A stretch of DNA of 64,000 nucleotides from contig NC_135550.1 of NCBI RefSeq assembly GCF_964340395.1, positions 32,674,176 to 32,738,175 of the forward strand. Reading direction: 5' to 3'. Source of the stretch: Glandiceps talaboti (lineage: Eukaryota; Hemichordata; Enteropneusta; Spengelidae). The notes under the pieces are model-generated. The model did no database searches and was not told the DNA's origin. It was given only the letters and a program-made list of their open reading frames with translations. Of the stretch, positions 19,164 to 51,120 are shown in pieces. Within the stretch, counting starts at the first letter, position 1. Each line of letters opens with the position of its first letter. Made by a program: the position numbers and the translations under genes.

Positions 19164-19194
<31 letters not shown>

Positions 19195-19411
19195 CATTAG
19201 TACCAGTTAACTTACCTTCAACAGTTGGGTAACCAGGGACAACATCTTTATAATTTCCGGCCTTATCAGGTACTTGTACTGAAGTAATGGCTGCTCCAAC
19301 ACTGATCAATTCTACTGTCATGCCATTACTGTTTTTCAGTTTATATCTCTTCACTTCTTTACCATCTTTTGTCTTGCCAAAGACATCAGTGGTAATGCTT
19401 GTATTGCTCAT
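14790..19411 (-). CDS. GALM: Aldose 1-epimerase (galactose mutarotase)
   Basis: Cytosolic enzyme that interconverts alpha and beta anomers of galactose and glucose, feeding the Leloir pathway. Seven exons: 19411-19216, 18944-18790, 18524-18315, 18028-17947, 16805-16667, 15607-15433, 14870-14790, all GT-AG and frame-consistent, giving 345 residues (human protein 342). The start MSNTSITTDVFG aligns with the family N-terminus. Active-site residues are present: N83-R84, H109 in LHGG, H179 in NHCYFNLAG (catalytic acid), D245 in GGYD, and E309 in GLCLEAQNYPD (catalytic base). The protein ends HTTWYKFSVTK. Exon 3 carries a 93-bp duplication of its 3' end (see findings). Introns hold SINE, MITE and duplication insertions. 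About 1 kb upstream of the start codon begins the 21-kb foldback element. Nothing in the coding sequence looks broken. Confidence 0.95.
14974..15225. repeat. (CAAT)n run plus about 41-bp minisatellite in GALM intron 6
   Basis: A short CAAT run is followed by about six copies of a unit built on CCAATCATTGTATTTCAGTG and CTGGGCTTCAG. A few substitutions separate the copies. Confidence 0.9.
15946..16093. repeat. Tandem duplication of 74 bp in GALM intron 5
   Basis: The segment starting CAGTCTATAGATACATACAA and ending at CTCCTTG occurs twice in a row, at 15946 and 16020, almost without difference, so it is recent. Confidence 0.9.
16297..16638. mobile_element. Palindromic MITE, TA target site (Tc1/mariner-like)
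   Basis: Almost the whole 342-bp unit is one inverted repeat. The left end starts AAGTGGCTATATGGATGAGG and the right end, reversed, starts AAGTAGTCATATGTATTAGG; both continue with ATTGGGTATTTATT and later TGGCTTCCTACTTGA. It is flanked by TA on both sides (16295-16296 and 16639-16640). The centre is a short hairpin around AAGTTTGTTATTGT. TA duplication and lack of coding sequence fit a Tc1/mariner-derived MITE. It lies in GALM intron 5, 29 bp from exon 5. Confidence 0.75.
17166..17935 (+). mobile_element. tRNA-derived SINE, split by a MITE
   Basis: The SINE head (17166-17199: TGTCGGTGGCCAAGTGGTTA, an A box) and its body and tail (17712-17935: CTGTGGTCAGGGTTCAA as B-box region, then AGTAAGAAAAGTG, TTTTCCCCAGGTACTC, ending AATAAAGATTACTG) become contiguous if the MITE and one copy of its 8-bp duplication are removed. 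The joined order matches the SINE at 53.3 kb. It lies in GALM intron 4. Confidence 0.85.
17208..17703. mobile_element. MITE with about 190-bp inverted ends inserted in the SINE
   Basis: A 496-bp foldback-type MITE. The ends are CACAGGCACTC and GAGTGCCTGTG, and the inverted arms run inward through AGATCTATGAATAAATGG, TCTAATRTTTCCTG, GAATGCTGTGTGTTCTATGT and CTAGTATTGCACGCT. It is flanked by a perfect 8-bp duplication, CTCTTACC (17200-17207 and 17704-17711). An 8-bp duplication fits the hAT or P superfamilies, and the CA-start ends do not separate them. No coding capacity. Arms differ by roughly a dozen substitutions and small indels. Confidence 0.85.
18219..18404 (-). repeat. 93-bp tandem duplication across GALM exon 3 end and donor
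   Basis: Two adjacent copies (18312-18404 and 18219-18311) each contain the end of exon 3 (ATLVNLVNHCYFNLAGH) and the start of the intron. The upstream copy has a strong donor (CAT|GTAAGT), the downstream copy a weaker one (CAT|GTAATA). The period is 93 bp, that is 31 codons, and the frame stays open through both copies. Confidence 0.9.
19163..19195. repeat. (ATAA)n microsatellite
   Basis: About eight tandem ATAA units in GALM intron 1. Confidence 0.95.
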
Positions 19412-20397
19412 TGCTGGATATACGTCAAGACCTGCTAGTCAAAATACCAGTTGAAAAAGTTTGCTAAATTCTCAGTGATTTGTAGGAAATCTACTGAATA
19501 TACAGTTCTTTAACTATGGCATGTTGACAAACAGCAGTAGCTTGATATTGGGAGAAATTGCAAAACAACAAGGTAAAATTAGAAAGTTCGACGTTAATAT
19601 CACACTTCCTAAATTTCTAATCGAAAATCTACAATATTTAAATTGAATGCGTTCTGTAAGGGAATCATCAATTATGCAAATTACCCATTAAAATGATATT
19701 CAAAAAAATATGGTAATGAACGTTATAATAATTAATTATGCAAAGTGTTCCCTAAATCTTTAGGTGAAATTGATGGCTTTTATAGTACATATGCACTCTG
19801 TTACATTTAACGTATGTACTAAATTGTATGGAAATTGAAGTATGCAGTCTAAAGATATTGCCTAAATACCAAAACTCATTAATTAAGCAAATGATTTATT
19901 AACAGTGTAAGGTACATCAGCAAACATTATAGGATACATACGATTTGTTATGGTTAAAATATGTACGAATGGTACTGAAATTTACCTCGGAAATTTAAGT
20001 ATGCATTCTAAAGACATAGCCTAATTACCGAAACTCATTACTTATGTAAATTAATCTTTAAAACTGTGAGGTACATCAATAAACTTAACAGGACATATGG
20101 GATTTATTAATATTGCATACACTGGGATGCATCAGCATTCATTATCACGCTTAACATGATTGGACAATCATGTCCTCTATCTAAAAGGTCATGATATGGT
20201 TAGACTGTCGACAGTCGCTCGCGCCTTTTTTTTCCTACGTTTTATCGTCGCCGCGCTCCGATCCGGCGCAACACTACTACTATAATCAGAGAGATCGAGG
20301 GCCGCAGTGTTCACTATACATTTTTAAAAAAAAATGATACACATTGATTCGAGTGCCTGTGATATTACCTACCGTTAGAAATGAGTGCAAAACAGCT
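19412..20397. other. GALM upstream region
   Basis: Between the GALM start codon and the 21-kb element. At about 19830-20120 two diverged copies of a segment of about 165 bp are visible (shared AAGTATGCA-TCTAAAGA, ACCRAAACTCATTA, GAGGTACATCA-type blocks). A small GC- and CpG-rich patch at about 20205-20310 (CGCTCGCGCC, CGTCGCCGCGCTCCGATCC) stands out from the AT-rich surroundings and may be the GALM promoter or a non-coding first exon. Confidence 0.45.
20389..20397. repeat. 9-bp target duplication, left copy (AAAACAGCT)
   Basis: Identical to 41363-41371. The two copies directly abut perfectly matching inverted ends of the 21-kb element. Confidence 0.9.
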
Positions 20398-20815
20398 ACT
20401 AAGTTGAAGCAGGCAGACACAGGCAGCAAACAATGGAAGCAGGCAGAAATGACCTTTGACCTTGAACATCGAACCCTCTAGCTTACTGTCAAATTACTGT
20501 ATAGCAAGAAACAAGGACTTTACCTTTCTTTATCAGTTTCACAGACTTTCAGAAGTGATAAATCATAGAAGTAACATAATATAAGACATAAATGAAAACC
20601 CGAAGTAACTTTAAAAAAAAAATATTCCTATGCAATGTGATATTTACATGTTGTAAGTATTAACCAAACAATTATTTTCTCCCCATGCAAGAGTACTGTG
20701 TATTCACCATGCTTCAAAATACAGCTCTATGAAATCTGTATTATTAAAATTGGTTGTACTTAAATATTGTCTTTTACACCCTTCACTATAATAATGGGAA
20801 TGTTACTAATTCATG
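20398..20815. repeat. Left terminal inverted repeat, non-satellite part
   Basis: Matches the reverse complement of about 40945-41362 with very few differences: in the outer 280 bp I count about one substitution and one 3-bp indel. It contains a T-run/A-run, a DR1 nuclear-receptor site, and no open frame of note. The inner edge passes into satellite at GGTGCATTATGGGAAATTTC. Confidence 0.85.
20450..20462 (-). promoter_or_regulatory. DR1 nuclear-receptor site in left terminal repeat
   Basis: On the minus strand AGGTCAAAGGTCA, a perfect direct repeat of AGGTCA spaced by one base (the HNF4/RXR-type consensus), preceded by TCA, so that TCAAGGTCA (ERR/SF-1 half-site form) overlaps it. About 1.04 kb upstream of the GALM start codon. 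The match is seen; binding is not shown. Confidence 0.55.
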
Positions 20816-23800
20816 GAAAGATGGGGTGCATTATGGGAAATTTCACTATTTCATACACAATTAAAATTCACTTTTCTCGCAAACCATTGAGTGTGCACAC
20901 TATTAGGCCTAGTACACTACTATATGAGCTATCAAATGATATATGTGACTTTATATAAATTTCGTCTTTCATACCCAGCAGACACACTTTTAATTAAGAA
21001 ATTATAGGAATATTTACAAATTTTGATGAAACTGCACGTGCGTTTTCTTGCAAACAATTGAGTGTGCACATTATTCATATAGTAGGCTTAATACAGTTAT
21101 ATATAAGCTATGACATGATATATTTCACTTTTAATAAATTTCGTCATTAATACCCAGCAGACACAGAAAGATGTGGTGCATTATGGGAAATTTCACTATT
21201 CCATACACAAATGAAATTCACTTTTCTCGCAAACCATTGAGTGTGCACACTATTCATGTATTTGGCCTAGTACACTACTATATGAGCTTTTAAAGAATAT
21301 ATGTGACTTTATATAAATTTCGTCTTTCATACCCAGCAGACACACTTTTATTTAGGAAATTATAGGAATATTTACAAATTTTGATGAAACTACACATGCG
21401 TTTTCTTGCAAACAATTGAGTGTGCACACTATTCACCTATTAGACCTAGTACAATATCATATCAGCTATTATATGATATATGTGACTTTATATAAATTTT
21501 GTCTTTCATACCCAGCAGACACACTTTTATTTTAATATACAATTATAGCAATATTTACAAGTTTTGATGAAACTGCACATGCGTTCTCTTGCAAACAATT
21601 GAGTGTGCACACTATTCGCATAGTAGGCTTAATAAAGTTATATATAAGCTATGACATGATATATTTCACTTTTGATAAATTTCGTTGTTGATACCCAGCA
21701 GACACAGAAAGATGTGATGCATTCTGGGAAATTTCAATATTTCATACACAAATCAAATGCACATTTCTAGTAAACCATTGAGTGTGCACACTATTCGCGT
21801 ATTAGGCCTAGTACACTACTATATGAGCTATTAAATGATATATGTGACTTTATATAAATTTCGTCTTTCATACCCAGCAGACACACCTTCATTCAGGAAA
21901 TTATAGGAATATTTACAAATTTTGATAAAACTGCACATGTGTTTTCTTGCAAACAATTGAGTGTGCACATTATTGATATAGTAGGCTTAATACAGTTATA
22001 TATAAGCTATAACGTGATATATTTCACTTTTAATAAATTTCATCATTAATACCCAGCAGACACAGAATCATGTGGTGCATTCTGGGAAATTTCACTATTC
22101 CATACACAAATGAAATTCACTTTTCTCGCAAACCATTGAGTGTGCACACTCTTCACGTATTAGGCCTAGTACACTACTATATGAGCTATTAAATGATATA
22201 AGTGACTTTATATAAATTTCGTCTTTCATACCCAGCAGACACACTTTTATTTATACAATTATAGGAATATTTACAAATTTTGATGAAACTACACGTGTTT
22301 TCTTGCAAAAACAATTGAGTGTGCACGCTATTCACCTATTAGGCCTAGTACAATATCATATCAGCTATTATATGATATATGTGACTTTATATAAATTTTG
22401 TCTTTCATACCCAGCAGACACACTTTTATTTATACAATTATAGCAATATTTACAAGTTTTGATGAAACTGCACATGCGTTCTCTTGCAAAAAATTGAGTG
22501 TGCACACTATTCGCATAGTAGGCTTAATAAAGTTATATATAAGCTATGACATGATATATTTCACTTTTGATAAATTTCGTCGTTGATACCCAGCAGACAA
22601 AGAAAGATGTGGTGCATTCTGGGAAATTTCACTATTTCATACACAAATCAAATGCACATTTCAAGCAAACCATTGAGTGTGCACACTATTCACGTATTAG
22701 GCCTAGTACACTACTATATGAGCTATTAAATGATATATGTGACTTTATATAAATTTCGTCTTTCATACCCAGCAGACACACCTTCATTCAGGAAATTATA
22801 GGAATATTTACAAATTTTGATAAAACTGCACATGCGTTTTCTTGCAAACAATTGAGTGTGCACATTATTCATATAGTAGGCTTAATACAGTTATATATAA
22901 GCTATGACATGATATATTTCACTTTTAATAAATTTCGTCATTAATACCCAGCAGACACAGAAAGATGTGATGCATTATGGGAAATTTCACTATTTCAAAC
23001 ACAAATCAAATTCACTTTTCTCGTAAACCATTGAGTGTGCACACTATTCACGTATTAGGCCTAGTACACTACTATATGAGCTATTAAATGATATATGTGA
23101 CTTTATATAAATTTCGTCTTTCATACCCAGCAGACACACCTTCATTCAGGAAATTATAGGAATATTTACAAATTTTGATAAAACTGCACATGCATTTTAT
23201 TGCAAACAATTGAGTGTGCACATTATTCATATAGTAGGCTTAATACAGTTATATATAAGCTATAACGTGATATATTTCACTTTTAATAAATTTCGTCATT
23301 GATACCCAGCAGACACAGAAAGATGTGGTGCATTCTGGGAAATATCACTATTTCATACACAAATCAAATGCACATTTCAAGCAAACCATTTAGTGTGCAC
23401 ACTATTCACGTATTAGGCCTAGTACACTACTATATGAGCTATTAAATGATATATGTGACTTTATATAAATTTCGTCTTTCATACCCAGCAGACACACCTT
23501 CATTCAGGAAATTACAGGAATATTTACAAATTTTGATAAAACTGCACATGCGTTTTATTGCAAACAATTGAGTGTGCACATTATTCATATAGTAGGCTTA
23601 ATACAGTTATATATAAGCTATGACATGATATATTTCACTTTTAATAAATTTCGTCATTAATACCCAGCAGACACAGAATCATGTGGTGCATTATGGGAAA
23701 TTTCACTATTCCATACACAAATGAAATCCACTTTTCTCGTAAACCATTGAGTGTGCACACTATTCACGTATTAGGCCTAGTACACTACTATATGAGCTAT

Positions 23801-25343
23801 TAAATGATATATGTGACTTTATATAAATTTCGTCTTTCATACCCAGCAGACACACCTTCATTCAGGAAATTATAGGAATATTTACAAATTTTGATAAAAC
23901 TGCACATGCGTTTTCTTGCAAACAATTGAGTGTGCACATTATTCACCTATTACGCCTAGTACAATATCATATCAGCTATTATATGATATATGTGACTTTA
24001 TATAAATTTTGTCTTTCATACCCAGCAGACACACTTTTATTTATACAATTATAGCAATATTTACAAATTTTGATGAACTGCATATGCGTTTTATTGCAAA
24101 CAATTGAGTGTGCACATTATTCATATAGTAGGCTTAATACAGTTATATATAAGCTATGACATGATATATTTCACTTTTAATAAATTTCGTCATTAATACC
24201 CAGCAGACACAGAAAGATGTGATGCATTATGGGAAATTTCACTATTTCAAACACAAATCAAATTCACTTTTCTCGTAAACCATTGAGTGTGCACACTATT
24301 CACGTATTAGGCCTAGTACACTGCTATATGAGCTATTAAATGATATAAGTGACTTTATATAAATTTCGTCTTCCATACCCAGCAGACACACTTTTATTTA
24401 TACAATTATAGCAATATTTACAAGTTTTGACGAAACTGCACATGTGTTTTCTTGCAAACAATTGAGTGTGCACACTATTCGCATAGTAGGCTTAATAAAG
24501 TTATATATAAGCTATGACATGATATATTTTACTTTTGATAAATTTCGTCATTGATACCCAGCAGACAAAGAAAGATGTGGTGCATTCTGGGAAATTTCAC
24601 TATTTCATACACAAATCAAATGCACATTTCAAGCAAACCATTGAGTGTGCACACTATTCACGTATTAGGCCTAGTACACTACTATATGAGCTATTAAATG
24701 ATATATGTGACTTTATATAAATTTCGTCTTTCATACCCAGCAGACACACCTTCATTCAGGAAATTATAGGAATATTTACAAATTTTGATAAAACTGCACA
24801 TGCGTTTTCTTGCAAACAATTGAGTGTGCACATTATTCATATAGTAGGCTTAATACAGTTATATATAAGCTATGACATGATATATTTCACTTTTAATAAA
24901 TTTCGTCATTAATACCCAGCAGACACAGAAAGATGTGATGCATTATGGGAAATTTCACTATTTCAAACACAAATCAAATTCACTTTTCTCGTAAACCATT
25001 GAGTGTGCACACTATTCACGTATTAGGCCTAGTACACTACTATATGAGCTATTAAATGATATATGTGACTTTATATAAATTTCGTCTTTCATACCCAGCA
25101 GACACACCTTCATTCAGGAAATTATAGGAATATTTACAAATTTTGATAAAACTGCACATGCATTTTATTGCAAACAATTGAGTGTGCACATTATTCATAT
25201 AGTAGGCTTAATACAGTTATATATAAGCTATAACGTGATATATTTCACTTTTAATAAATTTCGTCATTGATACCCAGCAGACACAGAAAGATGTGGTGCA
25301 TTCTGGGAAATATCACTATTTCATACACAAATCAAATGCACAT

Positions 25344-27850
25344 TTCTAGCAAGCCATTCAGTGTGCACACTATTCACGTATTAGGCCTAGTACAATATCA
25401 TATCAGCTATTATATGATATATGTGACTTTATATAAATTTCGTCTTTCATATCCAGCAGACACACCTTCATTCAGGAAATTATAGGAATATTTACAAATT
25501 TTGATAAAACTGCACATGCGTTTTCTTGCAAACAATTGAGTGTGCACATTATTCATATAGTAGGCTTAATACAGTTATATATAAGCTATGACATGATATA
25601 TTTCACTTTTAATAAATTTCGTCATTAATACCCAGCAGACACAGAAAGATGTGATGCATTATGGGAAATTTCACTATTTCAAACACAAATCAAATTCACT
25701 TTTCTCGTAAACCATTGAGTGTGCACACTATTCACGTATTAGGCCTAGTACACTACTATATGAGCTATTAAATGATATATGTGACTTTATATAAATTTCG
25801 TCTTTCATACCCAGCAGACACACCTTCATTCAGGAAATTATAGGAATATTTACAAATTTTGATAAAACTGCACATGCATTTTATTGCAAACAATTGAGTG
25901 TGCACATTATTCATATAGTAGGCTTAATACAGTTATATATAAGCTATAACGTGATATATTTCACTTTTAATAAATTTCGTCATTTATACCCAGCAGACAC
26001 AGAAAGATGTGGTGCATTCTGGGAAATTTCACTATTTCATACACAAATCAAATGCACATTTCAAGCAAACCATTTAGTGTGCACACTATTCACGTATTAG
26101 GCATAGTACACTACTATATGAGCTATTAAATGATATATGTGACTTTATATAAATTTCGTCTTTCATACCCAGCAGACACACCTTCATTCAGGAAATTACA
26201 GGAATATTTACAAATTTTGATAAAACTGCACATGCGTTTTATTGCAAACAATTGAGTGTGCACATTATTCATATAGTAGGCTTAATACAGTTATATATAA
26301 GCTATGACATGATATATTTCACTTTTAATAAATTTCGTCATTGATGCCCAGCAGACACAGAATCATGTGGTGCATTATGGGAAATTTCACTATTCCATAC
26401 ACAAATGAAATTCACTTTTCTCGTAAACCATTGAGTGTGCACACTATTCACGTATTAGGCCTAGTACACTACTATATGAGCTATTAAATGATATATGTGA
26501 CTTTATATAAATTTCGTCTTTCATACCCAGCAGACACACCTTCATTCAGGAAATTATAGGAATATTTACAAATTTTGATAAAACTGCACATGCGTTTTCT
26601 TGCAAACAATTGAGTGTGCACATTATTCACCTATTACGCCTAGTACAATATCATATCAGCTATTATATGATATATGTGACTTTATATAAATTTTGTCTTT
26701 CATACCCAGCAGACACACTTTTATTTATACAATTATAGCAATATTTACAAATTTTGATGAACTGCATATGCGTTTTATTGCAAACAATTGAGTGTGCACA
26801 TTATTCATATAGTAGGCTTAATACAGTTATATATAAGCTATGACATGATATATTTCACTTTTAATAAATTTCGTCATTAATACCCAGCAGACACAGAAAG
26901 ATGTGATGCATTATGGGAAATTTCACTATTTCAAACACAAATCAAATTCACTTTTCTCAGAAACCATTGAGTGTGCACACTATTCACGTATTAGGCCTAG
27001 TACACTGCTATATGAGCTATTAAATGATATAAGTGACTTTATATAAATTTCGTCTTTCATACCCAGCAGACACACTTTTATTTATACAATTATAGGAATA
27101 TTTACAAATTTTGATGAAACTACACATGTGTTTTCTTGCAAACAATTGAGTGTGCACGCTATTCACCTATTAGGCCTAGTACAATATCATATCAGCTATT
27201 ATATGATATATGTGACTTTATATAAATTTCATCGTTGATACCCAGCAAACACAGAAAGTTGTGATGCATTATGGGAAATTTCATTATTTCATACACAAAT
27301 CAAATTCACTTTTCTAGCAAACCATTGAGTGTGCACACTATTCACATATTAGGCCTAGTACAATACTATATGAGCTATCAAATGATTTTGTGACTTTATA
27401 TAAATTTCGTCTTTCATACCCAGCAGACACACTTTTATTTAGGAATTTAATTATAGGAATATTTACAAATTTTGATGAAACTACACGTGCATTTTCTTGC
27501 AAACAATTGAGTGTGCACACTATTCACCTATTAGGCCTAGTACACTTCTATATGAGTTATTAAATGATATATGTTACTTTATATAAATTTCGTCTTCCAT
27601 ACCCAGCAGACACACTTTTATTTATACAATTATAGGAATATTTACAAATTTTGATGAACTGCATATGCATTTTCTTGCAAACAATTGAGTGTGCACATTA
27701 TTCATATAGTAGGCTTAATACAGTTATATATAAGCTATAACATGATATATTTCACTTTTGATAAATTTTGTCGTTCACACCCAGCAGACACAGAAAGCTG
27801 TGATGCATTATGGGAAATTTCACTATTTCATACACAAATGAAATTCACTT
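25344..27850 (+). repeat. Higher-order repeat unit of 2,507 bp, copy 1
   Basis: About 14 monomers. Nearly identical to 27851-30357: irregular landmarks such as TTCTAGCAAGCCATTCAG, CATATCCAGCAG, GATGCCCAGCAG and AGGAATTTAATTATAGG recur at exactly 2,507-bp offset. Few substitutions separate the copies. Confidence 0.9.
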
Positions 27851-30357
27851 TTCTAGCAAGCCATTCAGTGTGCACACTATTCACGTATTAGGCCTAGTAC
27901 AATATCATATCAGCTATTATATGATATATGTGACTTTATATAAATTTCGTCTTTCATATCCAGCAGACACACCTTCATTCAGGAAATTATAGGAATATTT
28001 ACAAATTTTGATAAAACTGCACATGCGTTTTCTTGCAAACAATTGAGTGTGCACATTATTCATATAGTAGGCTTAATACAGTTATATATAAGCTATGACA
28101 TGATATATTTCACTTTTAATAAATTTCGTCATTAATACCCAGCAGACACAGAAAGATGTGATGCATTATGGGAAATTTCACTATTTCAAACACAAATCAA
28201 ATTCACTTTTCTCGTAAACCATTGAGTGTGCACACTATTCACATATTAGGCCTAGTACACTACTATATGAGCTATTAAATGATATATGTGACTTTATATA
28301 AATTTCGTCTTTCATACCCAGCAGACACACCTTCATTCAGGAAATTATAGGAATATTTACAAATTTTGATAAAACTGCACATGCATTTTATTGCAAACAA
28401 TTGAGTGTGCACATTATTCATATAGTAGGCTTAATACAGTTATATATAAGCTATAACGTGATATATTTCACTTTTAATAAATTTCGTCATTGATACCCAG
28501 CAGACACAGAAAGATGTGGTGCATTCTGGGAAATTTCACTATTTCATACACAAATCAAATGCACATTTCAAGCAAACCATTTAGTGTGCACACTATTCAC
28601 GTATTAGGCATAGTACACTACTATATGAGCTATTAAATGATATATGTGACTTTATATAAATTTCGTCTTTCATACCCAGCAGACACACCTTCATTCAGGA
28701 AATTACAGGAATATTTACAAATTTTGATAAAACTGCACATGCGTTTTATTGCAAACAATTGAGTGTGCACATTATTCATATAGTAGGCTTAATACAGTTA
28801 TATATAAGCTATGACATGATATATTTCACTTTTAATAAATTTCGTCATTGATGCCCAGCAGACACAGAATCATGTGGTGCATTATGGGAAATTTCACTAT
28901 TCCATACACAAATGAAATTCACTTTTCTCGTAAACCATTGAGTGTGCACACTATTCACGTATTAGGCCTAGTACACTACTATATGAGCTATTAAATGATA
29001 TATGTGACTTTATATAAATTTCGTCTTTCATACCCAGCAGACACACCTTCATTCAGGAAATTATAGGAATATTTACAAATTTTGATAAAACTGCACATGC
29101 GTTTTCTTGCAAACAATTGAGTGTGCACATTATTCACCTATTACGCCTAGTACAATATCATATCAGCTATTATATGATATATGTGACTTTATATAAATTT
29201 TGTCTTTCATACCCAGCAGACACACTTTTATTTATACAATTATAGCAATATTTACAAATTTTGATGAACTGCATATGCGTTTTATTGCAAACAATTGAGT
29301 GTGCACATTATTCATATAGTAGGCTTAATACAGTTATATATAAGCTATGACATGATATATTTCACTTTTAATAAATTTCGTCATTAATACCCAGCAGACA
29401 CAGAAAGATGTGATGCATTATGGGAAATTTCACTATTTCAAACACAAATCAAATTCACTTTTCTCAGAAACCATTGAGTGTGCACACTATTCACGTATTA
29501 GGCCTAGTACACTGCTATATGAGCTATTAAATGATATAAGTGACTTTATATAAATTTCGTCTTTCATACCCAGCAGACACACTTTTATTTATACAATTAT
29601 AGGAATATTTACAAATTTTGATGAAACTACACATGTGTTTTCTTGCAAACAATTGAGTGTGCACGCTATTCACCTATTAGGCCTAGTACAATATCATATC
29701 AGCTATTATATGATATATGTGACTTTATATAAATTTCATCGTTGATACCCAGCAAACACAGAAAGTTGTGATGCATTATGGGAAATTTCATTATTTCATA
29801 CACAAATCAAATTCACTTTTCTAGCAAACCATTGAGTGTGCACACTATTCACATATTAGGCCTAGTACAATACTATATGAGCTATCAAATGATTTTGTGA
29901 CTTTATATAAATTTCGTCTTTCATACCCAGCAGACACACTTTTATTTAGGAATTTAATTATAGGAATATTTACAAATTTTGATGAAACTACACGTGCATT
30001 TTCTTGCAAACAATTGAGTGTGCACACTATTCACCTATTAGGCCTAGTACACTTCTATATGAGTTATTAAATGATATATGTTACTTTATATAAATTTCGT
30101 CTTCCATACCCAGCAGACACACTTTTATTTATACAATTATAGGAATATTTACAAATTTTGATGAACTGCATATGCATTTTCTTGCAAACAATTGAGTGTG
30201 CACATTATTCATATAGTAGGCTTAATACAGTTATATATAAGCTATAACATGATATATTTCACTTTTGATAAATTTTGTCGTTCACACCCAGCAGACACAG
30301 AAAGCTGTGATGCATTATGGGAAATTTCACTATTTCATACACAAATGAAATTCACTT
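27851..30357 (+). repeat. Higher-order repeat unit of 2,507 bp, copy 2
   Basis: Direct tandem copy of 25344-27850. Similarity to the start of a third unit continues to about 30406 and then switches to another monomer type, the usual footprint of unequal exchange. Confidence 0.9.
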
Positions 30358-30950
30358 TTCTAGCAAGCCATTCAGTGTGCACACTATTCACGTATTAGGC
30401 CTAGTACACTACTATATGAGCTATCAAATGATATACGTGACTTTATATAAATTTCGTCTTCCATACCCAGCAGACACACTTTTATTTATACAATTATAGG
30501 AATATTTACAAATTTTGATGAAACTACACATGCGTTTTCTTGCAAACAATTGAGTGTGCTCACTAATCACCTATTAGGCCTAGTGCAATATCATATCAGC
30601 TATTATATGATATAAGTGACTTTATATAAATTTCGTCATTGATACCCAGCAGACACAGAAACATATGGTGCATTCTGGGAAATTTCATTATTTCATACAC
30701 AAATCAAATTCACTTTTCTAGCAAACCATTGAGTGTGCACACTATTCATGTATTAGGCCTAGTACACTACTATATGAGCTATTAAATGATATATGTGACT
30801 TTATATAAATTTCATCTTTCATACCCAGCAGACACACTTTTATTTAGGAATTTAATTATAGGAATATTTACAAATTTTGATGAAACTACACGTGCGTTTT
30901 CTTGCAAACAATTGAGTGTGCACACTATTCATCTATTAGGCCTAGAACAT

Positions 30951-33900
30951 TAGCTGATATAATATTGTACTAGGACTAATACGTGAATAGTGTGCACACT
31001 CAATGGTTTGCTAGAAAAGTGGGTTTGATTTGTGTATGAAATAGTGAAATTTCCCATAATGCACCACATCTTTCTGTGTCTGCTGGGTATGAAAGACAAA
31101 ATTTATCAAAAGTGAAATATATCATGTTATAGCTTATATATAGCTTTATTATTAAAGTCTACTATACGAATAGTATGCACACTCAATTGTTTGCAAGAAA
31201 ACACACATGAAGTTTCACCAAATTAGTAAATATTGCTATAATTTCCTAAATAAAAGCGTGTCTGCTGGGTATAAAAGACGAAATTTATTTAAAGTCACCT
31301 ATATCATATGATAGCTGATATAATATTGTACTAGGCCTTATAGGTGAATAGTGTGCACACTCAATGGTTTGCTAGAAAAGTGGGTTTGATTTGTGTATGA
31401 AATAGTGAAATTTCCCAGAATGCACCACATCTTTCTGTGTCTGCTGGGTATCAACGACAAAATTTATCAAAAGTGAAATATATCATGTTATAGCTTATAT
31501 ATAACTGTATTACACCTACTATATGAATAATGTGCACACTCAATTGTTTGCAAGAAAACGCATGTGCAGTTTCATCAAAATTTGTAAATATTCCTATAAT
31601 TTCTTAATTAAAAGTGTGTCTGCTGGGTATGAAAGACGAAATTTATATAAAGTCACATATATCATTTGATAGCTCATATAGTAGTGTACTAGGCCTAATA
31701 CGTGAATAGTGTGCACACTCAATTGTTCGCAAGAAAACGCATGTGCAATTTCAGCAAAATTTGTAAATATTCCTATTATTGTATAAATAAAAGTGTGTCT
31801 GCTGGGTATGAAACACGAAATTTATATAAAGTCACATATATCATTTAATAGCTTATATAGTAGTGTACTAGGCCTAATACGTGAATAGTGTGCACACTGA
31901 ATGGTTTGCTAGAAAAGTGAATTTCATTTGTGTATGAAATAATGAAATTTCCCATAATGCATCACATCTTTCTGTGTCTGCTGGGTATCAACGACGAAAT
32001 TTATCAAAAGTGAAATATATCATGTTATAGCTTATATATAACTGTATTAAGCCTACTATATGAATAATGTGCACACTCAATTGTTTGCAAGAAAATGCAT
32101 ATGCAGTTCATCAAAATTTGTAAATATTCCTATAATTGTATAAATAAAAGTGTGTCTGCTGGGTATGAAAGACAAAATTTATATAAAGTCACATATATCA
32201 TATAATAGCTGATATGATATTGTACTAGGTCTAATAGGTGAATAGTGTGCACACTCAATTGTTTGCAAGAAAATGCACGTGTAGTTTCATCAAAATTTGT
32301 AAATATTCCTATAATTTCCTAAATAAAAGTGTGTCTGCTGGGTATGAAAGACGAAATTTATATAAAGTCACATATATTCTTTAATAGCTCATATAGTAGT
32401 GTACTAGGCCTAATACATGAATAGTGTGCACACTCAATGGTTTGCTTGAAAAGTGAATTTGATTTTTGTATGAAATAATGAAATTTCCCATAATGCATCA
32501 CATCTTTTTATGTCTGCTGGGTATCAACGACGAAATTTATCAAAAGTGAAATATATCATGTTATAGCTTATATATAACTGTATTAAGCCTACTATATGAA
32601 TAATGTGCACACTCAATTGTTTGCAAGACAACGCATGTGCAGTTTCCTCAAAATTTGTAAATATTCCTATAATTTCCTGAATGAAGGTGTGTCTGCTGGG
32701 TATGAAAGACGAAATTTATATAAAGTCACATATATCATATAATAGCTCATATAGTAGTGTACTAGGCCTAATACGTGAATAGTGTGCACACTGAATGGTT
32801 TACTAGAAATGTGAATTTGATTTGTGTTTGAAATAGTGAAATTTCCCATAATGCATCACATCTTTCTGTGTCTGCTGGGTATCAGCGACAAAATTTATTA
32901 AAAGTGAAATATATCATGTCATAGCTTATATATAACTGTATTAAGCCTACTATATGAATAATGTGCACACTCAATTGTTTGCAAGAAAACACATGTGCAG
33001 TTTCGTCAAAACTTGTAAATATTGCTATAATTGTATAAATAAAAGTGTGTCTGCTGGGTATGAAAGACAAAATTTATATAAAGTCACATATATCATATAA
33101 TAGCTGATATGATATTGTACTAGGTCTAATAGGTGAATAGTGTGCACACTCAATTGTTTGCAAGAAAACGCATGTGCAGTTTCCTCAAAATTTGTAAATA
33201 TTCCTATAATTTCCTGAATGAAGGTGTGTCTGCTGGGTATGAAAGACGAAATTTATATAAAGTCACATATATTCTTTAATAGCTCATATAGTAGTGTACT
33301 AGGCCTAATACGTGAATAGTGTGCACACTCAATGGTTTACTAGAAAAGTGAATTTGATTTGTGTTTGAAATAGTGAAATTTCCCATAATGCATCACATCT
33401 TTCTGTGTCTGCTGGGTATCAACGACAAAATTTATCAAAATGAAATATATCATGTCATAGCTTATATATAACTGTATTAAGCCTACTATATGAATAATGT
33501 GCACACTCAATTGTTTGCAAGAAAACGCATGTGCAGTTTTATCAAAATTTGTAAATATTCCTATAATTTCCTGAATGAAGGTGTGTCTGCTGGGTATGAA
33601 AGACGAAATTTATATAAAGTCACATATATTCTTTAATAGCTCATATAGTAGTGTACTAGGCCTAATACATGAATAGTGTGCACACTCAATGGTTTGCTTG
33701 AAAAGTGAATTTGATTTTTGTATGAAATAATGAAATTTCCCATAATGCATCACATCTTTTTATGTCTGCTGGGTATCAACGACGAAATTTATATAAAGTC
33801 ACATTTATCATTTAATAGCTTATATAGTAGTGTACTAGGCCTAATACGTGAATAGTGTGCACACTGAATGGTTTGCTAGAAAAGTGAATTTCATTTGTGT

Positions 33901-34902
33901 ATGAAATAATGAAATTTCCCATAATGCATCACATCTTTCTGTGTCTGCTGGGTATCAACGACGAAATTTATTAAAAGTGAAATATATCATGTCATAGCTT
34001 ATATATAACTGTATTAAGCCTACTATGCGAATAGTGTGCACACTCAATTGTTTGCAAGAGAACGCATGTGCAGTTTCATCAAAATTTGTAAATATTGCTA
34101 TAATTGTATAAATAAAAGTGTGTCTGCTGGGTATGAAAGACAAAATTTATATAAAGTCACGTATATCATATAATAGCTGATATGATATTGTACTAGGCCT
34201 AATAGGTGAATAATGTGCACACTCAATTGTTTGCAAGAAAACGCATGTGCAGTTTCATCAAAATTTGTAAATATTCCTATAATTTCCTGAATGAAGGTGT
34301 GTCTGCTGGGTATGAAAGACGAAATTTATATAAAGTCACATATATTCTTTAATAGCTCATATAGTAGTGTACTAGGCCTAATACATGAATAGTGTGCACA
34401 CTCAATGGTTTACTAGAAAAGTGAATTTGATTTGTGTTTGAAATAGTGAAATTTCCCATAATGCATCACATCTTTCTATGTCTGCTGGGTATCAACGACG
34501 AAATTTATCAAAAGTGAAATATATGATGTTATAGCTTATATATAACTTTATTAACACTACTATATGAATAATGTGCACACTTAATTGTTTGCATGAAAAC
34601 GCATGTGCAATTTCAGCAAAATTTGTAAATATTCCTATAATTTCCTGAATGAAGGTGTGTCTGCTGGGTATGAAACACGAAATTTACATAAAGTCACATA
34701 TATTCTTTAATAGCTCATATAGTAGTGTACTAGGCCTAATACGTGAATAGTGTGCACACTCAATGGTTTACTAGAAATGTGAATTTGATTTGTGTTTGAA
34801 ATAGTGAAATTTCCCATAATGCATCACATCTTTCTGTGTCTGCTGGGTATCAGCGACAAAATTTATCAAAAGTGAAATATATCATGTCATAGCTTATATA
34901 TA
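30951..34902 (-). repeat. Right satellite array, inner part (inverted)
   Basis: The same A and B monomers in reverse orientation (GTGTCTGCTGGGTAT every 180 bp or so), about 22 monomers, starting abruptly at the symmetry centre and ending where the LINE begins. Not a mirror copy of the left arm: monomer order and substitutions differ. Confidence 0.95.
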
Positions 34903-34986
34903 ATAATGTTTATTTTCGCCAGAAAAAAAAGACAATATCTCGTACAAAGAGCTCGACATTACAAATAAATTTACAGAGCTTAATGT

Positions 34987-35003
34987 TATAAATTATTCAG
35001 ATT

Positions 35004-35075
<72 letters not shown>
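34987..35075. repeat. (CA)n microsatellite in LINE 3' UTR
   Basis: Uninterrupted CA dinucleotides inside the LINE 3' UTR. Confidence 0.95.
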
Positions 35076-35080
<5 letters not shown>

Positions 35081-35297
35081 GGTGAACATTTCTGGCGGGG
35101 ATCACAAATAGTTCATTCGAACTAGTCTGAATGTGACCCTCAGACACAATGCGAAAAATACTTTTAAAGGTGAACGTCTGTGAAAGATGGTCGAACGGTA
35201 TAAGAAGTATAACAGCTGTATATGCCGATGGGTAGATTAATTAACAGTAAATGATATCTACATAACATAACAGTGGAATAGCACTGAAAAGAGAAGT

Positions 35298-38225
35298 TTA
35301 GCTGGTAAGTAGCCAGTTCTTCAAGTGATACTTAAATTCATGGCGTTTATTGAGATTCTTGATAAAGTCTGGTATTGAGTTCCAGTGTTTGGTTGCAGCG
35401 TACTTGAAGCTATGATGGTTCAAAGAAAGATTAAATTTTGGAGTATAAAAATTGTCACTTGTTGCCTGTCGTGTTGAGTAACTATGAGGTAAAATGTCGA
35501 GGTAATTATAAACGCTGTGCGCAAAGCGACTACTCTTTAAATCAAAAATAAACATACAGGTACTAAATTTGCTCTGTTTATGAATATCTAAAATATTAAG
35601 TTTACGAAAAATAGGAGCAGTGTGAGCACGAAAGTCTGCGAAAGTAATAAGGCGAACTATTTGCTTCTGTAACTTCAAGATAGGATTTAACAAGCTCATA
35701 TAGGTATTGCCCCAAATTTCAATACAATACGATATGTGTGGTAAGATCATGGAGTTGTACAGTAGGATAAGTGTTGATTGGGGAACGATATGACGGAGTT
35801 TTGAAATAATCCCTACAATTGGTGCAATTGAATTTCTAACCTTGTCAATGTGAGGTTTCCAAGTCATATGTTCATCTAGGAATACTCCCAGATAGTTGGT
35901 TGAAGAGACACCAAGTATGGGAGAATTACCAATGTTCAGACTACCAGATACATTGACGGATCTCTGGGGTGTTTTTATTATCATGTAGTTCGTTTTTTCG
36001 GAATTTATAGTCAGTTTGTTCGCATTACACCAATCGCAGACTTTCCTGAAATCAATATCGATCTGATTTAGATTGACAGTATTAGTCTGGTTCTTGATAA
36101 ATTGGAATAAATTCGTATCATCTGCAAAGAGTCTGAAGTCAAATGATCCAGTGGAGTTAACAATGTCATTGATATAGATTAGAAACAAGATAGGACCTAG
36201 TATTGATCCTTGCGGAACACCACAACTTATTGACATGCATGATGAAGAACTATCACTGATATTTACAGTTTGCTTACGATTGGTCAGATAGCTTTTGAAC
36301 CAGAGTAGTGGTAAACCCCTTATGCCATAATGTTCTAATTTACATAACAAAATGTCATGATTGATTGTATCAAATGCTTTTCTAAGGTCTATAAAAATTC
36401 CAAATGTCAAAAATCCCTTGTCCAATTTTTCAGCAATGTTAGCGACCAGATCAGCAAGAGCCAGTTTTGTACTGTGCTTCTTGCGAAAGCCGAACTGTGT
36501 TTCTATTAAAATATTATATTTTTCGAGGTAGTTAAGTAATTGCTTATTTATAACGGATTCAATTATTTTGCTGATAATTGGCAAGATCGAGATCGGTCGA
36601 TAATTACCAACATCTTGGGCAGAGCCCTTCTTATAGACTGGGATCACTTTTGCAACTTTTAAATCATCTGGGAAGGTACCTTGGATCAGTGAACAGTTAA
36701 TCACATGGGTGAGTGGAGCGGAAATTATATTTGCGGCATGTTTCACCAATTTTGGATGAACCATGTCTTGCCCGGTGGCTTTTTCAGGGTCCAGTTTTTG
36801 AATTTCACTAAGAACTTCGTTCTCACACACAGGTCGAAAGTAAAAAGAGTTGACGTAGTTACCTCTAAGATATTGATTAAAATCAGAAATAGTTGTTATC
36901 CTCGCTGCAAGCTTAGGACCAACATTCGTAAAGTAGTAATTAAATTCTTCAGCTATATCTTTGTTTTCTGAAAGGAGAGTTTTTTGAGGGTCTCTTCCTT
37001 TGATACTGTCTGGGATAAGGTTTGACTTACTTTTGTTTAAAATTTCCTTTATCACTCGCCATGTCTTGTTAGTGTTTCCATGAGATAAAGTGAATAGATT
37101 AGCATAATGACTTTTCTTTGCTGACTTGAGGAGCTTCGACAAGATATTCCTGTACGCTGTGTACTTAATTTTGATATGATGATCATGGGGGTTACTTTTC
37201 ATTTTCTTGAATAATCTATGCTTTGTAGAAATAGATTTGAGCAAACCCTTGGAAAGCCAAGGTTTCTGGATTGGTTTTGGCTTGTGATGAGACGATTTCA
37301 GGCGGAGATGTTTTCTCAGTACACTATAGAATAAGTTATAGAAATTTGCATAGGCATCAGTCGGGTCACGGCAGTCATAAACTGTTTGCCATGGTATATC
37401 ATCCAAATCAGCAAGGAAAGCGTCTTTGTTATAGCTCTTAAAGTCATAACGTTGAAAGGTAGTGTTAGGTTTGAAAACGTGGTTAAACTGTTTGATGATA
37501 CCGAATATGGGATAGTGGTCGGTAATGTCTGACAGAATAACTCCGCTTTCAATGAAATAGTCAGTGATGGTAGAAAGAAAGTGATCAATGGTTGAACTTG
37601 AAGAGGAAGTTACTCGGGTAGGGGTGTTAATTAACTGTGAGAAATTGTATGTGTTTAAAAGAGAGTTGTAATGAATAGCAGGTGTATTGTCAAAGGAAGT
37701 ATCGATGTTTACATCACCAAGGATTACAAATTCCCTTCCCTTGATTGACATCTGGTCGATGCATGCTTCAAAACTATCAAAGAATTCGTCATATGGCGTA
37801 TTGGGTCTACGGTAAATAACACCTACCACAACTCTTTTGTTTTCAATGACACATTCAACAAAAAGAGACTCACAATGTGCAATACTTTTTGAATTTATGC
37901 GGGTGGTTTGCAAGGAGTTGTGAGTGTACAATGCAACGCCGCCACCCTGAGAACCCTTACGATTACATGTGATAAGATTAAACGAAGGTAAATTGTAAAG
38001 GCAACAGTTTGAATCTGGTTTCAACCATGTTTCTGACAGAGCAATAAAGTGAAAATTCTGCTGTAAGATGCTAAGCAAGGACACAAAATCATCGTAATGT
38101 TTTGACAATGATCTTATGTTTAGATGCAGGAAAGAACAAGCATTACATGATATCTCTCTGTTTTCATTGAACTGATCAACACTATATGACTTACAATTGT
38201 ATTTGATTATGGCTTCTTCAGTCAT
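35298..38225 (-). CDS. LINE ORF2: endonuclease and reverse transcriptase
   Basis: Open frame of 975 residues. Residues about 30-245 form an APE-type endonuclease: HLNIRSL, ALSETWLKP (catalytic Glu), GGGVALY, ILGDVNID (Asp/Asn), STIDHFL and SDITDHYPI (terminal Asp-His). A linker of about 200 residues follows. The reverse transcriptase starts near residue 490 and shows VIPVYKKGS, NYRPISILPIISKIIE, GFRKKHST, GIFIDLRKAFDTINHD, GVPQGSILGPILFLIYINDI and the catalytic FADDTNLF. The C-terminal part (about 750-975) has the usual HMTWKPHIDKV, NSMILPHISYCIEIWGN and WNSIPDFIKN blocks of the Jockey/CR1/L2 group. No RNase H domain. It copies the LINE RNA by target-primed reverse transcription. No broken positions seen. 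Confidence 0.95.
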   Translation of the reverse strand: MTEEAIIKYNCKSYSVDQFNENREISCNACSFLHLNIRSLSKHYDDFVSLLSILQQNFHFIALSETWLKPDSNCCLYNLPSFNLITCNRKGSQGGGVALYTHNSLQTTRINSKSIAHCESLFVECVIENKRVVVGVIYRRPNTPYDEFFDSFEACIDQMSIKGREFVILGDVNIDTSFDNTPAIHYNSLLNTYNFSQLINTPTRVTSSSSSTIDHFLSTITDYFIESGVILSDITDHYPIFGIIKQFNHVFKPNTTFQRYDFKSYNKDAFLADLDDIPWQTVYDCRDPTDAYANFYNLFYSVLRKHLRLKSSHHKPKPIQKPWLSKGLLKSISTKHRLFKKMKSNPHDHHIKIKYTAYRNILSKLLKSAKKSHYANLFTLSHGNTNKTWRVIKEILNKSKSNLIPDSIKGRDPQKTLLSENKDIAEEFNYYFTNVGPKLAARITTISDFNQYLRGNYVNSFYFRPVCENEVLSEIQKLDPEKATGQDMVHPKLVKHAANIISAPLTHVINCSLIQGTFPDDLKVAKVIPVYKKGSAQDVGNYRPISILPIISKIIESVINKQLLNYLEKYNILIETQFGFRKKHSTKLALADLVANIAEKLDKGFLTFGIFIDLRKAFDTINHDILLCKLEHYGIRGLPLLWFKSYLTNRKQTVNISDSSSSCMSISCGVPQGSILGPILFLIYINDIVNSTGSFDFRLFADDTNLFQFIKNQTNTVNLNQIDIDFRKVCDWCNANKLTINSEKTNYMIIKTPQRSVNVSGSLNIGNSPILGVSSTNYLGVFLDEHMTWKPHIDKVRNSIAPIVGIISKLRHIVPQSTLILLYNSMILPHISYCIEIWGNTYMSLLNPILKLQKQIVRLITFADFRAHTAPIFRKLNILDIHKQSKFSTCMFIFDLKSSRFAHSVYNYLDILPHSYSTRQATSDNFYTPKFNLSLNHHSFKYAATKHWNSIPDFIKNLNKRHEFKYHLKNWLLTS

Positions 38226-38271
38226 TCATGTGAAATGATTAAGTACTATTGGAAATATTAATCGGTAAGAG

Positions 38272-39138
38272 TTACTTTATACGTTGAATGTCGTCTTCTG
38301 ACTTTATCTTCACTACAGGTGAATCATCTTCTTTCCTAGTGAATATATTTCCGTTCTGTGTCCAGATGTGTTTCCATCTTGCTTCTTTTCGTCTTCTGTT
38401 CGTCTCATGAAATAACTTCTTATTCTTACTGGTTAATTGTTCGTTGATGTAAATTCGACCGTCTTCCCTTTTCGTTGTTGGCAGACCTATGTCCGATATC
38501 TTCTTGTTTTGTAGAAGTTTCTTTGCTTTGTATATCTTGTTGCGTACACTTCTCCTAGTGAAACGTACGATGATTGCAGGTTGTTGTTGACCGGTTTTCT
38601 TTGGGAGGCGATGACTGATGTCAATATCACTTGCTGTCACTGGTACTCCAATAGCTTCAGCTACTTTTATAACAATGTCATCTGTGTTTTCATCTTGTAT
38701 TTCATGTATACCCTGTATTTCGAGGTTATTCCGTCGAGTATACTGTTGCAGGTCTTCGATTTCGTTCTCGGCGTCTTTGAGTCTTTTGTCTGCTATTTGC
38801 AACTGTTGACGTAGTGACTTGTTTTCTGTGAGGATGTCTTGCATTTGCTTTCTGTGTTCTTCAAACAATGTATTCATGTAAGTGACTGACCGCTGTAGTT
38901 GATCCAGAGTAATTGTCATCGTGGAGAGTTGGTCTACTTTCTGCCAAAGGGCATCAAGTCTCTGTTCAATAGGACCTGTTGATGGTGAACTTTTCACACT
39001 CTCCGCCATCTTGTCTTTGTTATTGTCAATCTTCTCGGCTGTTCTTGGAAAACGTTTTGATTCACATTTTCTACACAATTGCAGATCTCCTTGACATGAC
39101 CGTACGCCCCTTGTGGTATCACAGTCATTGCACTTCAT
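38272..39138 (-). CDS. LINE ORF1: RNA-binding protein
   Basis: 288 residues. The N-terminus is cysteine-rich (MKCNDCDTTRGVRSC, LCRKCESKR), a zinc-binding pattern. Residues about 60-135 form a long heptad-like coiled coil (LDALWQKVDQLSTM to IEDLQQYTRRNN). The following domain starts NNLEIQGI and includes SHRLPKK, PAIIVRFTRRSVRNKI and IYINEQLT, the RNA-binding fold shared by ORF1 proteins of several LINE groups. Ends 46 bp before ORF2 in another frame, so ORF2 would need re-initiation or a similar mechanism. It is presumed to coat the LINE RNA and chaperone nucleic acids. Confidence 0.9.
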   Translation of the reverse strand: MKCNDCDTTRGVRSCQGDLQLCRKCESKRFPRTAEKIDNNKDKMAESVKSSPSTGPIEQRLDALWQKVDQLSTMTITLDQLQRSVTYMNTLFEEHRKQMQDILTENKSLRQQLQIADKRLKDAENEIEDLQQYTRRNNLEIQGIHEIQDENTDDIVIKVAEAIGVPVTASDIDISHRLPKKTGQQQPAIIVRFTRRSVRNKIYKAKKLLQNKKISDIGLPTTKREDGRIYINEQLTSKNKKLFHETNRRRKEARWKHIWTQNGNIFTRKEDDSPVVKIKSEDDIQRIK

Positions 39139-39214
39139 TTTACATGGAATAATAGTGCCTCACCGATTCCAGTGGGGACTTATTCTGGAGAGGCTATCAG
39201 AGCGTGCACACGCG

Positions 39215-40944
39215 TGTATTAAGCCTACTATATGAATAATGTGCACACTCAATTGTTTGCAAGAAAACACATGTGCAGTTTCGTCAAAACTTGTAAATAT
39301 TGCTATAATTGTATAAATAAAAGTGTGTCTGCTGGGTATGAAAGACAAAATTTATATAAAGTCACATATATCATATAATAGCTGATATGATATTGTACTA
39401 GGTCTAATAGGTGAATAGTGTGCACACTCAATTGTTTGCAAGAAAATGCACGTGTAGTTTCATCAAAATTTGTAAATATTCCTATAATTTCCTAAATAAA
39501 AGTGTGTCTGCTGGGTATGAAAGACGAAATTTATATAAAGTCACATATATTCTTTAATAGCTCATATAGTAGTGTACTAGGCCTAATACATGAATAGTGT
39601 GCACACTCAATGGTTTGCTTGAAAAGCGAATTTGATTTTTGTATGAAATAATGAAATTTCCCATAATGCATCACATCTTTTTATGTCTGCTGGGTATCAA
39701 CGACGAAATTTATATAAAGTGAAATATATCATGTTATAGCTTATATATAACTGTATTAAGCCTACTATATGAATAGTGTGCACACTCAATTGTTTGCAAG
39801 ACAACGCATGTGCAGTTTCCTCAAAATTTGTAAATATTCCTATAATTTCCTGAATGAAGGTGTGTCTGCTGGGTATGAAAGACGAAATTTATATAAAGTC
39901 ACATATATTCTTTAATAGCTCATATAGTAGTGTACTAGGCCTAATACGTGAATAGTGTGCACACTCAATGGTTTCTGAGAAAAGTGAATTTCAATTGTGT
40001 TTGAAATAGTGAAATTTCCCATAATGCATCACAGCTTTCTGTGTCTACTGGGTATCAGCGACAAAATTTATCAAAAGTGAAATATATCATGTCATAGCTT
40101 ATATATAACTGTATTAAGCCTACTATATGAATAATGTGCACACTCAATTGTTTGCAACAAAACACATGTGCAGTTTCATCAAAACTTGTAAATATTGCTA
40201 TAATTGTATAAATAAAAGTGTGTCTGCTGGGTATGAAAGACAAAATTTATATAAAGTCACATATATCATATAATAGCTGATATGATATTGTACTAGGTCT
40301 AATAGGTGAATAGTGTGCACACTCAATTGTTTGCAAGAAAACGCATGTGCAGTTTCCTCAAAATTTGTAAATATTCTATTAAATTTCCTGAATGAAGGTG
40401 TGTCTGCTGGGTATGAAACACGAAATTTATATAAAGTCACATATATTCTTTAATAGCTCATATAGTAGTGTACTAGGCCTAATACGTGAATAGTGTGCAC
40501 ACTCAATGGTTTACTAGAAAAGTGAATTTGATTTGTGTTTGAAATAGTGAAATTTCCCATAATGCATCACATCTTTCTGTGTCTGCTGGGTATTAATGAC
40601 GAAATTTATTAAAAGTGAAATATATCATGTCATAGCTTATATATAACTGTATTAAGCCTACTATATGAATAATGTGCACACTCAATTGTTTGCAAGAAAA
40701 CACATGTGCAGTTTCGTCAAAACTTGTAAATATTGCTATAATTGTATAAATAAAAGTGTGTCTGCTGGGTATGAAAGACGAAATTTATATAAAGTCACAT
40801 ATATCATTTAATAGCTCATATAGTAGTGTACTAGGCCTAATACGTGAATAGTGTGCACACTCAATGGTTTCTGAGAAAAGTGAATTTCAATTGTGTATGA
40901 AATAGTGAAATTTCCCATAATGCACCCCATCTTTCCATGAATTA
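39215..40944 (-). repeat. Right satellite array, outer part (inverted)
   Basis: Continuation of the inverted array beyond the LINE, about ten monomers, ending where the non-satellite terminal segment begins (CCCATCTTTCCATGAATTAG). Confidence 0.95.
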
Positions 40945-41362
40945 GTAACATTCCCATTATTATAGTGAACTCTTTGAAGGGTGTAAAAGACAATATTTAA
41001 GTACAACCAATTTTTATAATAATACAAATTTCATAGAGCTGTATTTTGAAGCATGGTGAATACACAGTACTCTTGCATTGGGAGAAAATAATTGTTTGGT
41101 TAATACTTACATGTAAATATCACATTGCATAGGAATATTTTTTTTTTAAAGTTACTTCGGGTTTTCGTTTATGTCTTATATTATGTTACTTCTATGATTT
41201 ATCACTTCTGAAAGTCTGTGAAACTGATAAAGAAAGGTAAAGTCCTTGTTTCTTGCTATACAGTAATTTGACAGTAAGCTAGAGGGTTCGATGTTCAAGG
41301 TCAAAGGTCATTTCTGCCTGCTTCCATTGTTTGCTGCCTGTGTCTGCCTGCTTCAACTTAGT
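40945..41362. repeat. Right terminal inverted repeat, non-satellite part
   Basis: Reverse complement of 20398-20815, ending CCTGCTTCAACTTAGT. See the left copy. Confidence 0.85.
41298..41310 (+). promoter_or_regulatory. DR1 nuclear-receptor site in right terminal repeat
   Basis: AGGTCAAAGGTCA, the mirror of the left copy, again preceded by TCA. It points toward the gene-bearing flank on the right. Confidence 0.5.
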
Positions 41363-41371
41363 AAAACAGCT
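41363..41371. repeat. 9-bp target duplication, right copy (AAAACAGCT)
   Basis: Identical to 20389-20397, directly following the inverted end. Confidence 0.9.

Positions 41372-45878: not shown

Positions 45879-51120
<5,242 letters not shown>

Follow-up and report, generated by a model that had tools for sequence, protein, structure and literature searches.

A stretch of 64,000 nucleotides from the acorn worm Glandiceps talaboti (RefSeq assembly GCF_964340395.1, contig NC_135550.1, positions 32,674,176 to 32,738,175), hereafter called the window, was analysed with regard to a large unit of inverted satellite DNA, which an earlier note, made from the sequence alone, had described as a 21-kb Foldback-like, MuDR-related element. 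The unit is flanked by the 9-bp target site duplication (TSD) AAAACAGCT, its ends are exact inverted copies of each other with the identical tip ACTAAGTTGAAGCAGG on both sides, and its body consists of two head-to-head arrays of a 179-bp repeat, which forms a 358-bp dimer. In all these aspects the earlier description was accurate, for the duplication even to the base. The span of 21 kb also held, whereas the size of the element proper had to be corrected: about 4.3 kb in the right arm are a later insertion of a long interspersed nuclear element (LINE), and therefore the transposon proper comprises about 16.65 kb, compared with 20965 bp including the LINE. As will be argued, the unit is very probably a non-autonomous DNA transposon of the foldback type, with which its satellite arrays travel.

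Borders and build of the window element

As C precedes the left copy of AAAACAGCT and G follows the right one, and the element starts with A and ends with T, the duplication cannot be read longer than 9 bp. By simple arithmetic, the chance that one given inverted pair is bordered on its two sides by the same 9 bp is about 4^-9. The two terminal segments of about 423 bp differ from each other by 3 mismatches and 3 indels. The arms are unequal, with about 10.1 kb of satellite on the left and about 5.7 kb on the right, where 31 anchor positions of the repeat were counted (Table 1). The LINE interrupts the right arm in the middle of a monomer, both halves of which are still recognisable, and among the open reading frames listed in the element, those outside the LINE are short satellite translations.

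Copies of the family and the probable travel of their arrays

The 590-Mb assembly that holds the window (window copy on C2) was searched with several queries. The terminal segment gave at least 53 genome matches (40 of 102 candidates scored), the inner terminal segment 27 (27 of 27 candidates scored), and the 20-bp tip, 3 mismatches at most being allowed, 64 matches versus 16 for the reversed control. Two tip matches facing inward within 60 kb were regarded as a convergent pair, and the tip was fixed at ACTA for the duplication test, from which partnerless ends on C24, C26 (twice), C11, C12 and C17 as well as smaller pieces were left out. The tip of the family reads ACTAAGTTGAAGCAGGCAGA. Among the 64 matches 11 convergent pairs were found, and all of them show a perfect 9-bp duplication with mutually different 9-mers (Table 1): ten of ten inverted pairs, and in addition the 88-bp pair of L030. 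Inverted end pairs with 9-bp duplications elsewhere in the genome, the check proposed in the earlier note, were thus found throughout.

The outermost 20 bp or so are common to all 11 paired members. Nine of these are large copies (5482, 7059, 7337, 8575, 9330, 10388, 17728, 20965 (with the LINE) and 26011 bp), each with inverted satellite arrays, and the remaining two are tiny. The nine large copies thus possess the long inverted ends, built largely of tandem subrepeats, by which foldback elements are recognised, and the constant size of the duplication, 9 bp in every pair, agrees with foldback elements and with the 8-11 bp of Mutator elements alike. The foldback part of the earlier description stood, and a kinship to MuDR is probable, judged from the size of the duplication and the architecture. 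One copy (L009) is inserted in the tip of another member of the family, and another (L010) carries an insertion within its right terminal segment. The matches of the tip around C5:12.49-12.51 Mb and around C12:19.15-19.18 Mb were dismissed as fragments without satellite matches, and the family tip was not found in a scan of viral contigs.

That the arrays themselves travelled is suggested by a comparison of sister copies. The flanks of the nine large loci (up to 300 bp on each side) showed no match to one another, which speaks against an origin of these copies by segmental duplication. The window element, L009, L011 and L012 have a common head-to-head breakpoint, which is absent in L010, and the outer 220 bp of the window element differ by 0-4 mismatches from the other ends of its group, with the exception of the right end of L010 with its insertion. 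Between L009 and L011 no mismatch was found in the outer 220 bp of either end (gaps not counted), and the two copies are 97.7% alike over the first 2681 bp. A second group, L013, L014+15 and L016+17 on C12, C13 and C9, presents an almost identical middle of about 310 bp (compared by eye) and a common set of unequal ends, with 49 mismatches of one end against the other in each copy, as also seen in L018-20. In register, the arrays of these three sisters are 98.5-99.9% alike over the 1.3 kb tested per end, and the ACTAAG arm drops to 90.8-96.3% when shifted by at least 716 bp, which is the true control, given that end gaps were free and shifts of up to 537 bp still permit an in-register overlap. 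L016+17 and L014+15 can be aligned in several blocks, among them one of 3560 bp at 98.71% and one of 3394 bp at 96.76%; expressed in units of 179 bp, these two correspond by simple arithmetic to about 17 and 16 monomers, one figure for each arm, that their common ancestor already had.

Because of the shared junction, the unequal ends, the in-register arrays at unrelated sites and the perfect duplications, the arrays are most simply taken to be carried along by the element as a single unit. Judging by the sister sequences, arrays of some 30 monomers or more were moved together with the transposon, which supports the idea of the earlier note that a satellite array can move as a single transposable unit. 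With the 358-bp dimer as query, 314 genome matches were obtained (38 of 39 candidates scored); all of the matches listed, a part of the 314 and sorted by eye, fell at 13 loci bearing the terminal segment, and no long arrays away from transposon ends were among them. Judged from this distribution, the satellite is likely private to the element.

Table 1. Features of the element, given as positions in the window, and the 11 paired members of the family with their target site duplications.
Feature	Location	Strand	Remarks
Target site duplication, left	20389..20397	.	AAAACAGCT, 9 bp
Left terminal segment	20398..20820	+	unique sequence in outer ~220 bp; tip ACTAAGTTGAAGCAGG
Inner half of left terminal segment	20617..20820	+	like a degenerate satellite monomer, weak evidence
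Left satellite array	20821..30949	+	179-bp monomer, 358-bp dimer; 56 anchor positions in arm
Tandem duplication within left array	24984..30941	+	24984-28430 vs 27492-30941, offset 2508 bp, 97.16%
Array-array junction, head-to-head	30925..30980	.	breakpoint common to L009, L011, L012
Right satellite array, inner part	30951..34903	-	
Nested non-LTR (long terminal repeat) retrotransposon (LINE)	34904..39218	-	inserted in right-arm monomer; borders within few bases
LINE ORF2 (open reading frame 2), 975 aa	35298..38225	-	endonuclease PF03372 and reverse transcriptase PF00078
LINE ORF1, 295 aa	38272..39159	-	PF25298 domain
Right satellite array, outer part	39219..40939	-	
Right terminal segment	40940..41362	-	inverted copy of 20398-20820
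Target site duplication, right	41363..41371	.	AAAACAGCT, 9 bp
Window copy	C2		9-bp duplication AAAACAGCT
L009	C13		9-bp duplication CTGCCTGCG
L010	C4		9-bp duplication GTTCATGTA
L011	C6		9-bp duplication GTCAGCAGA
L012	C8		9-bp duplication GCGCCAGTC
L013	C12		9-bp duplication TCAGTATAC
L014+15	C13		9-bp duplication GAATAACGC
L016+17	C9		9-bp duplication GCGTTGTTG
L018-20	C11		9-bp duplication GGAAGTACC
L027	C23		404 bp; 9-bp duplication TGTGGCGAT
L030	C20:15290917-15291004		88 bp, consisting almost entirely of two tips placed back to back; 9-bp duplication GGTACCTGA

In the neighbourhood of the window element, two minus-strand frames (18715-19438) match aldose 1-epimerase (PF01263), and as the apparent start codon lies at 19411, the element starts about 1 kb upstream of this gene. 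Other tandem arrays, with units of 44, 34, 48 and 25 bp, occur at 42812-43479, 45115-45615, 47696-48679 and 51615-52317. For a 500-aa frame at 8690-10189 no homologue was obtained. The nested LINE has no obvious target duplication, and its closest named relatives are Glandiceps proteins (60-64%).

Mobilisation, array growth and origin of the repeat

Each long inverted end of the element is composed of about 220 bp of unique sequence, and the remainder is the 179-bp tandem array. Mobilisation would have proceeded by cut-and-paste in trans through a Mutator-type transposase recognising the outer 220 bp or so; this type of enzyme is favoured because of the 9-bp duplication and of precedent, and by the size of its duplication and its architecture the foldback family would belong to Mutator.

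Several points weigh against this picture of a Mutator-type foldback element with travelling arrays. The length of the duplication is unambiguously 9 bp in four of the 11 loci (window, L012, L013, L018-20), and in seven the adjacent base equals the end letter of the element, so that the repeat is readable one or two bases longer. L038, a weak candidate pair below the threshold (4 mismatches in 16 bases at the second end), is without duplication. A transposase was seen neither inside the window element nor in the family copies read, and no Mutator-like element (MULE) lies within 370 kb of the family tips, other transposase families not having been searched. In the sisters L013, L014+15 and L016+17 the ACTATG arm is still 93.0-97.4% alike out of register (shifts of at least 716 bp), and copies could also have become more alike in their arrays through ectopic conversion. 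Finally, the outer arrays of the window element are merely about 86-96% alike to the rest of its group (best blocks above 800 bp: 95.1-96.2%), and therefore part of the 16.65 kb could have grown in place.

As to the enzyme, a superfamily other than Mutator (e.g. P/Galileo-like, Merlin or hAT), with a foldback architecture that arose convergently, is an unlikely but serious alternative. It is favoured by the result of the search for PF10551 (MULE), the only family searched, in which the nearest of 31 genome matches was 371 kb away from any of the 64 tip matches; a MuDR-type transposase gene with the ends of the family, which the earlier note had suggested looking for, was therefore not found. 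An autonomous copy may be diverged or missing. Among the frames of at least 85 aa at the unpaired ends L021-L026 and L028, inspected by eye and not run against Pfam, no transposase was recognised. Two of the 31 MULE loci were read, and family tips were absent near both: L036 has its own, different inverted repeats, and L035 (C7:2092500-2099500) has a 778-aa frame in which the MULE domain is apparently followed by regions resembling Ulp1 and PHD, both recognised by eye. The L035 frame is reminiscent of plant MULEs that carry Ulp1 genes. Against another superfamily stands the 9-bp duplication at all 11 sites, which best fits Mutator, and for Tm1, a Mutator/Phantom foldback element, mostly 9-bp duplications are likewise reported (PMC3169594).

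A second alternative concerns the arrays, the lengths of which keep changing, as shown by an internal tandem duplication and by the unequal lengths of the close sisters L013, L014+15 and L016+17 (8.6, 10.4 and 17.7 kb). Small foldbacks could have transposed and the arrays could have grown independently at each site by unequal crossing-over, without any large array having moved. Besides the variable lengths among copies, this explanation is favoured by the left array of the window, where a 2508-bp tandem duplication is 97.16% alike over 3451 bp, by the nearest same-type monomers, which mostly lie in their own arm (34 of 36 and 40 of 48) as a sign of within-arm turnover, and by the similarity of the two arms, which is 0.934 in register and 0.930 out of register. 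The difference of monomers within minus between arms was reached by 4 of 1000 shuffles for one type and by 117 of 1000 for the other. Independent growth may well explain the additional length of the individual copies, that of the window element included; as an account of the arrays as a whole it is nevertheless improbable. One central breakpoint occurs in the window, L009, L011 and L012, and the shared middle and in-register arrays of L013, L014+15 and L016+17 at three unrelated sites oppose it, because separate growth is not expected to yield an identical order of variants; in that group it is contradicted for about 3 kb per arm. Moreover, by substitutions alone (93 of 3451 in the duplication versus 3 of 420 in the terminal segments) the 2508-bp duplication would be older than the divergence of the terminal segments (Fisher p 0.011), a difference that is lost when indels are counted (0.14). 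An old inverted duplication, considered on account of the collinear arms of the window element, was rejected, as by the register test this collinearity reflects little beyond the periodic order of variants.

It is also doubtful, to about the same degree, that the 26-kb copy L018-20 (C11:16280094-16306104) is close to an autonomous form, the protein of which participates in mobilisation. This copy possesses both ends, the perfect duplication GGAAGTACC and, at element positions 13105-16359, an open frame of 1085 aa with UCH (3.6e-25) and Peptidase_C48 (6.5e-12) domains, with a partial duplicate of the C48 region upstream; the combination of a MULE domain with Ulp1/PHD-like parts in L035 also speaks in favour of such a role. 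However, the 1085-aa protein has no transposase domain and no significant match to the L035 protein, a search of a very large set of proteins gave only two weak homologues, and the frame may be a captured cargo or an accessory gene. At positions 6615-8195 the same copy contains a nested insertion of 1581 bp, apparently a further DNA transposon, which has the inverted ends GGCCAAACAAAAAAAA and is bordered by TTA on either side.

That the unit is an inverted satellite and its 9-bp repeat a coincidence, or that it is an artefact of assembly, for which it could be said that inverted satellite arrays are hard to assemble, has a negligible probability, being contradicted by perfect and differing 9-bp duplications in all 11 pairs of the family and by arms that can be placed apart in the assembly because they are about 6% different.

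The repeats might derive from the inner terminal segment and carry extra tip motifs that possibly bind the transposase. The likeness of the inner terminal half to the monomer had a score reached by 4 of 500 shuffles on the left and 6 of 500 on the right; at the right end, however, the reverse strand scored nearly the same (68) as the forward strand (71), which weighs against the likeness and renders it weak. Among the best-conserved 12-base stretches of the monomer are ACCCAGCAGACA and ATTGAGTGTGCA, and the 9-mers GCAGACACA and GCAAACAAT from the outermost 40 bp of the element recur within or next to these. A pair this good was obtained in 4 of 1000 shuffled tips and in 4 of 952 real flank windows (post hoc), a single 9-base match between tip and monomer in 67 of 1000 shuffles and 70 of 952 real windows; since the motifs were noticed before testing and single matches are common, they are a lead rather than proof. 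By analogy, the tip motifs of the monomers may serve as transposase-binding sites like those in the internal repeats of Galileo, which hold extra binding sites according to the Tetris paper (PMC4079207). The CENP-B box pattern was absent from the nine large elements.

Taken together, it can tentatively be proposed that the satellite exists only as the body of giant foldbacks: its monomers would have been born from the terminal segment, with tip motifs as transposase-binding sites, would have reached tens of copies in each arm while transposition continued, and would have been planted at new sites as preformed inverted islands of 5-26 kb, of which one or more neighbour a gene. We consider this wider proposal possible rather than probable, the scores of 68 and 71 at the right end telling slightly against it.

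Comparison with known foldback systems

Long inverted ends of tandem subrepeats are characteristic of Drosophila FB and sea urchin TU, which in this aspect resemble the Glandiceps family and differ from it by short subrepeats. The duplications comprise 9 bp in FB, 8 bp in TU and 8-11 bp, usually 9 bp, in the Mutator superfamily. Rehavkus is related to MULE-NOF.

The closest published system is Tetris of Drosophila virilis, a foldback element with TSDs of 8-10 bp, repeats of about 220 bp and terminal inverted repeats (TIRs) of up to 1.7 kb (PMC4079207). Common to Tetris and the Glandiceps family are the lack of coding capacity, a unique external flank followed by satellite-length repeats in inverted arms, a stretch shared by repeats and flank (37 bp in Tetris) and an autonomous partner that was not found. 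Tetris differs in having few repeats per TIR, and its long arrays of up to 66 repeats are described as satellite arrays, whereas about 9 to 56 repeats per arm occur in the perfectly duplicated units of Glandiceps, where sisters share arrays.

Rehavkus-1_TC of Tribolium castaneum is a DNA transposon of 9.5 kb with the 164-bp satellite TCsat23 in its inverted termini (PMC10218199); it has mostly 5 and 8 monomers and was compared with the Glandiceps family by description only. Tm1 of Meloidogyne (Mutator/Foldback) shows TSDs of 8-10 bp, mostly 9 bp, in 45 of 53 complete elements (PMC3169594). It is similar in its composite TIRs with variable tandem repeats and in members resembling miniature inverted-repeat transposable elements, and different in its repeats of about 14 bp and in some members encoding a putative Phantom-type transposase. 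The TCAST transposon-like elements of Tribolium are dispersed units located near genes and carry pieces of satellite in their inverted ends (PMC3411249); these, however, reach about 1.2 kb at most, contain one near-complete and one partial monomer, have a 3-bp ACT duplication in some cases and are mariner-like.

In the top-ranked results of the open-licence literature no report of such an element in an acorn worm was found. The kind is already known, since foldback elements with satellite-length repeats are represented by Tetris and Rehavkus-1_TC; the nucleosome-length satellite as foldback subrepeat, which the earlier note had put forward, was therefore borne out here without being new as a kind. 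New are the size of the arrays in units with a target footprint, the sisters that share arrays and the restriction, as it appears, of the satellite to such units. Units of 9-26 kb are noteworthy because a review of giant transposons places the fall in efficiency of DNA transposition above 6 kb of cargo and cites one study with Pack-MULEs of up to 7 kb. Expansion of internal arrays is given as one origin of satellites in a 2025 review. With regard to scattered satellite arrays in gene-rich DNA, the sister copies indicate an arrival of about 30 or more monomers by means of a DNA transposon, and the members of the family, ranging in size from 88 bp to 26 kb, form a series that allows the birth, growth and spread of a satellite to be traced. 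The authors of Tetris proposed that larger arrays may have disrupted transposition (PMC4079207); contrary to this, the Glandiceps family suggests that arrays of such a size need not prevent it.

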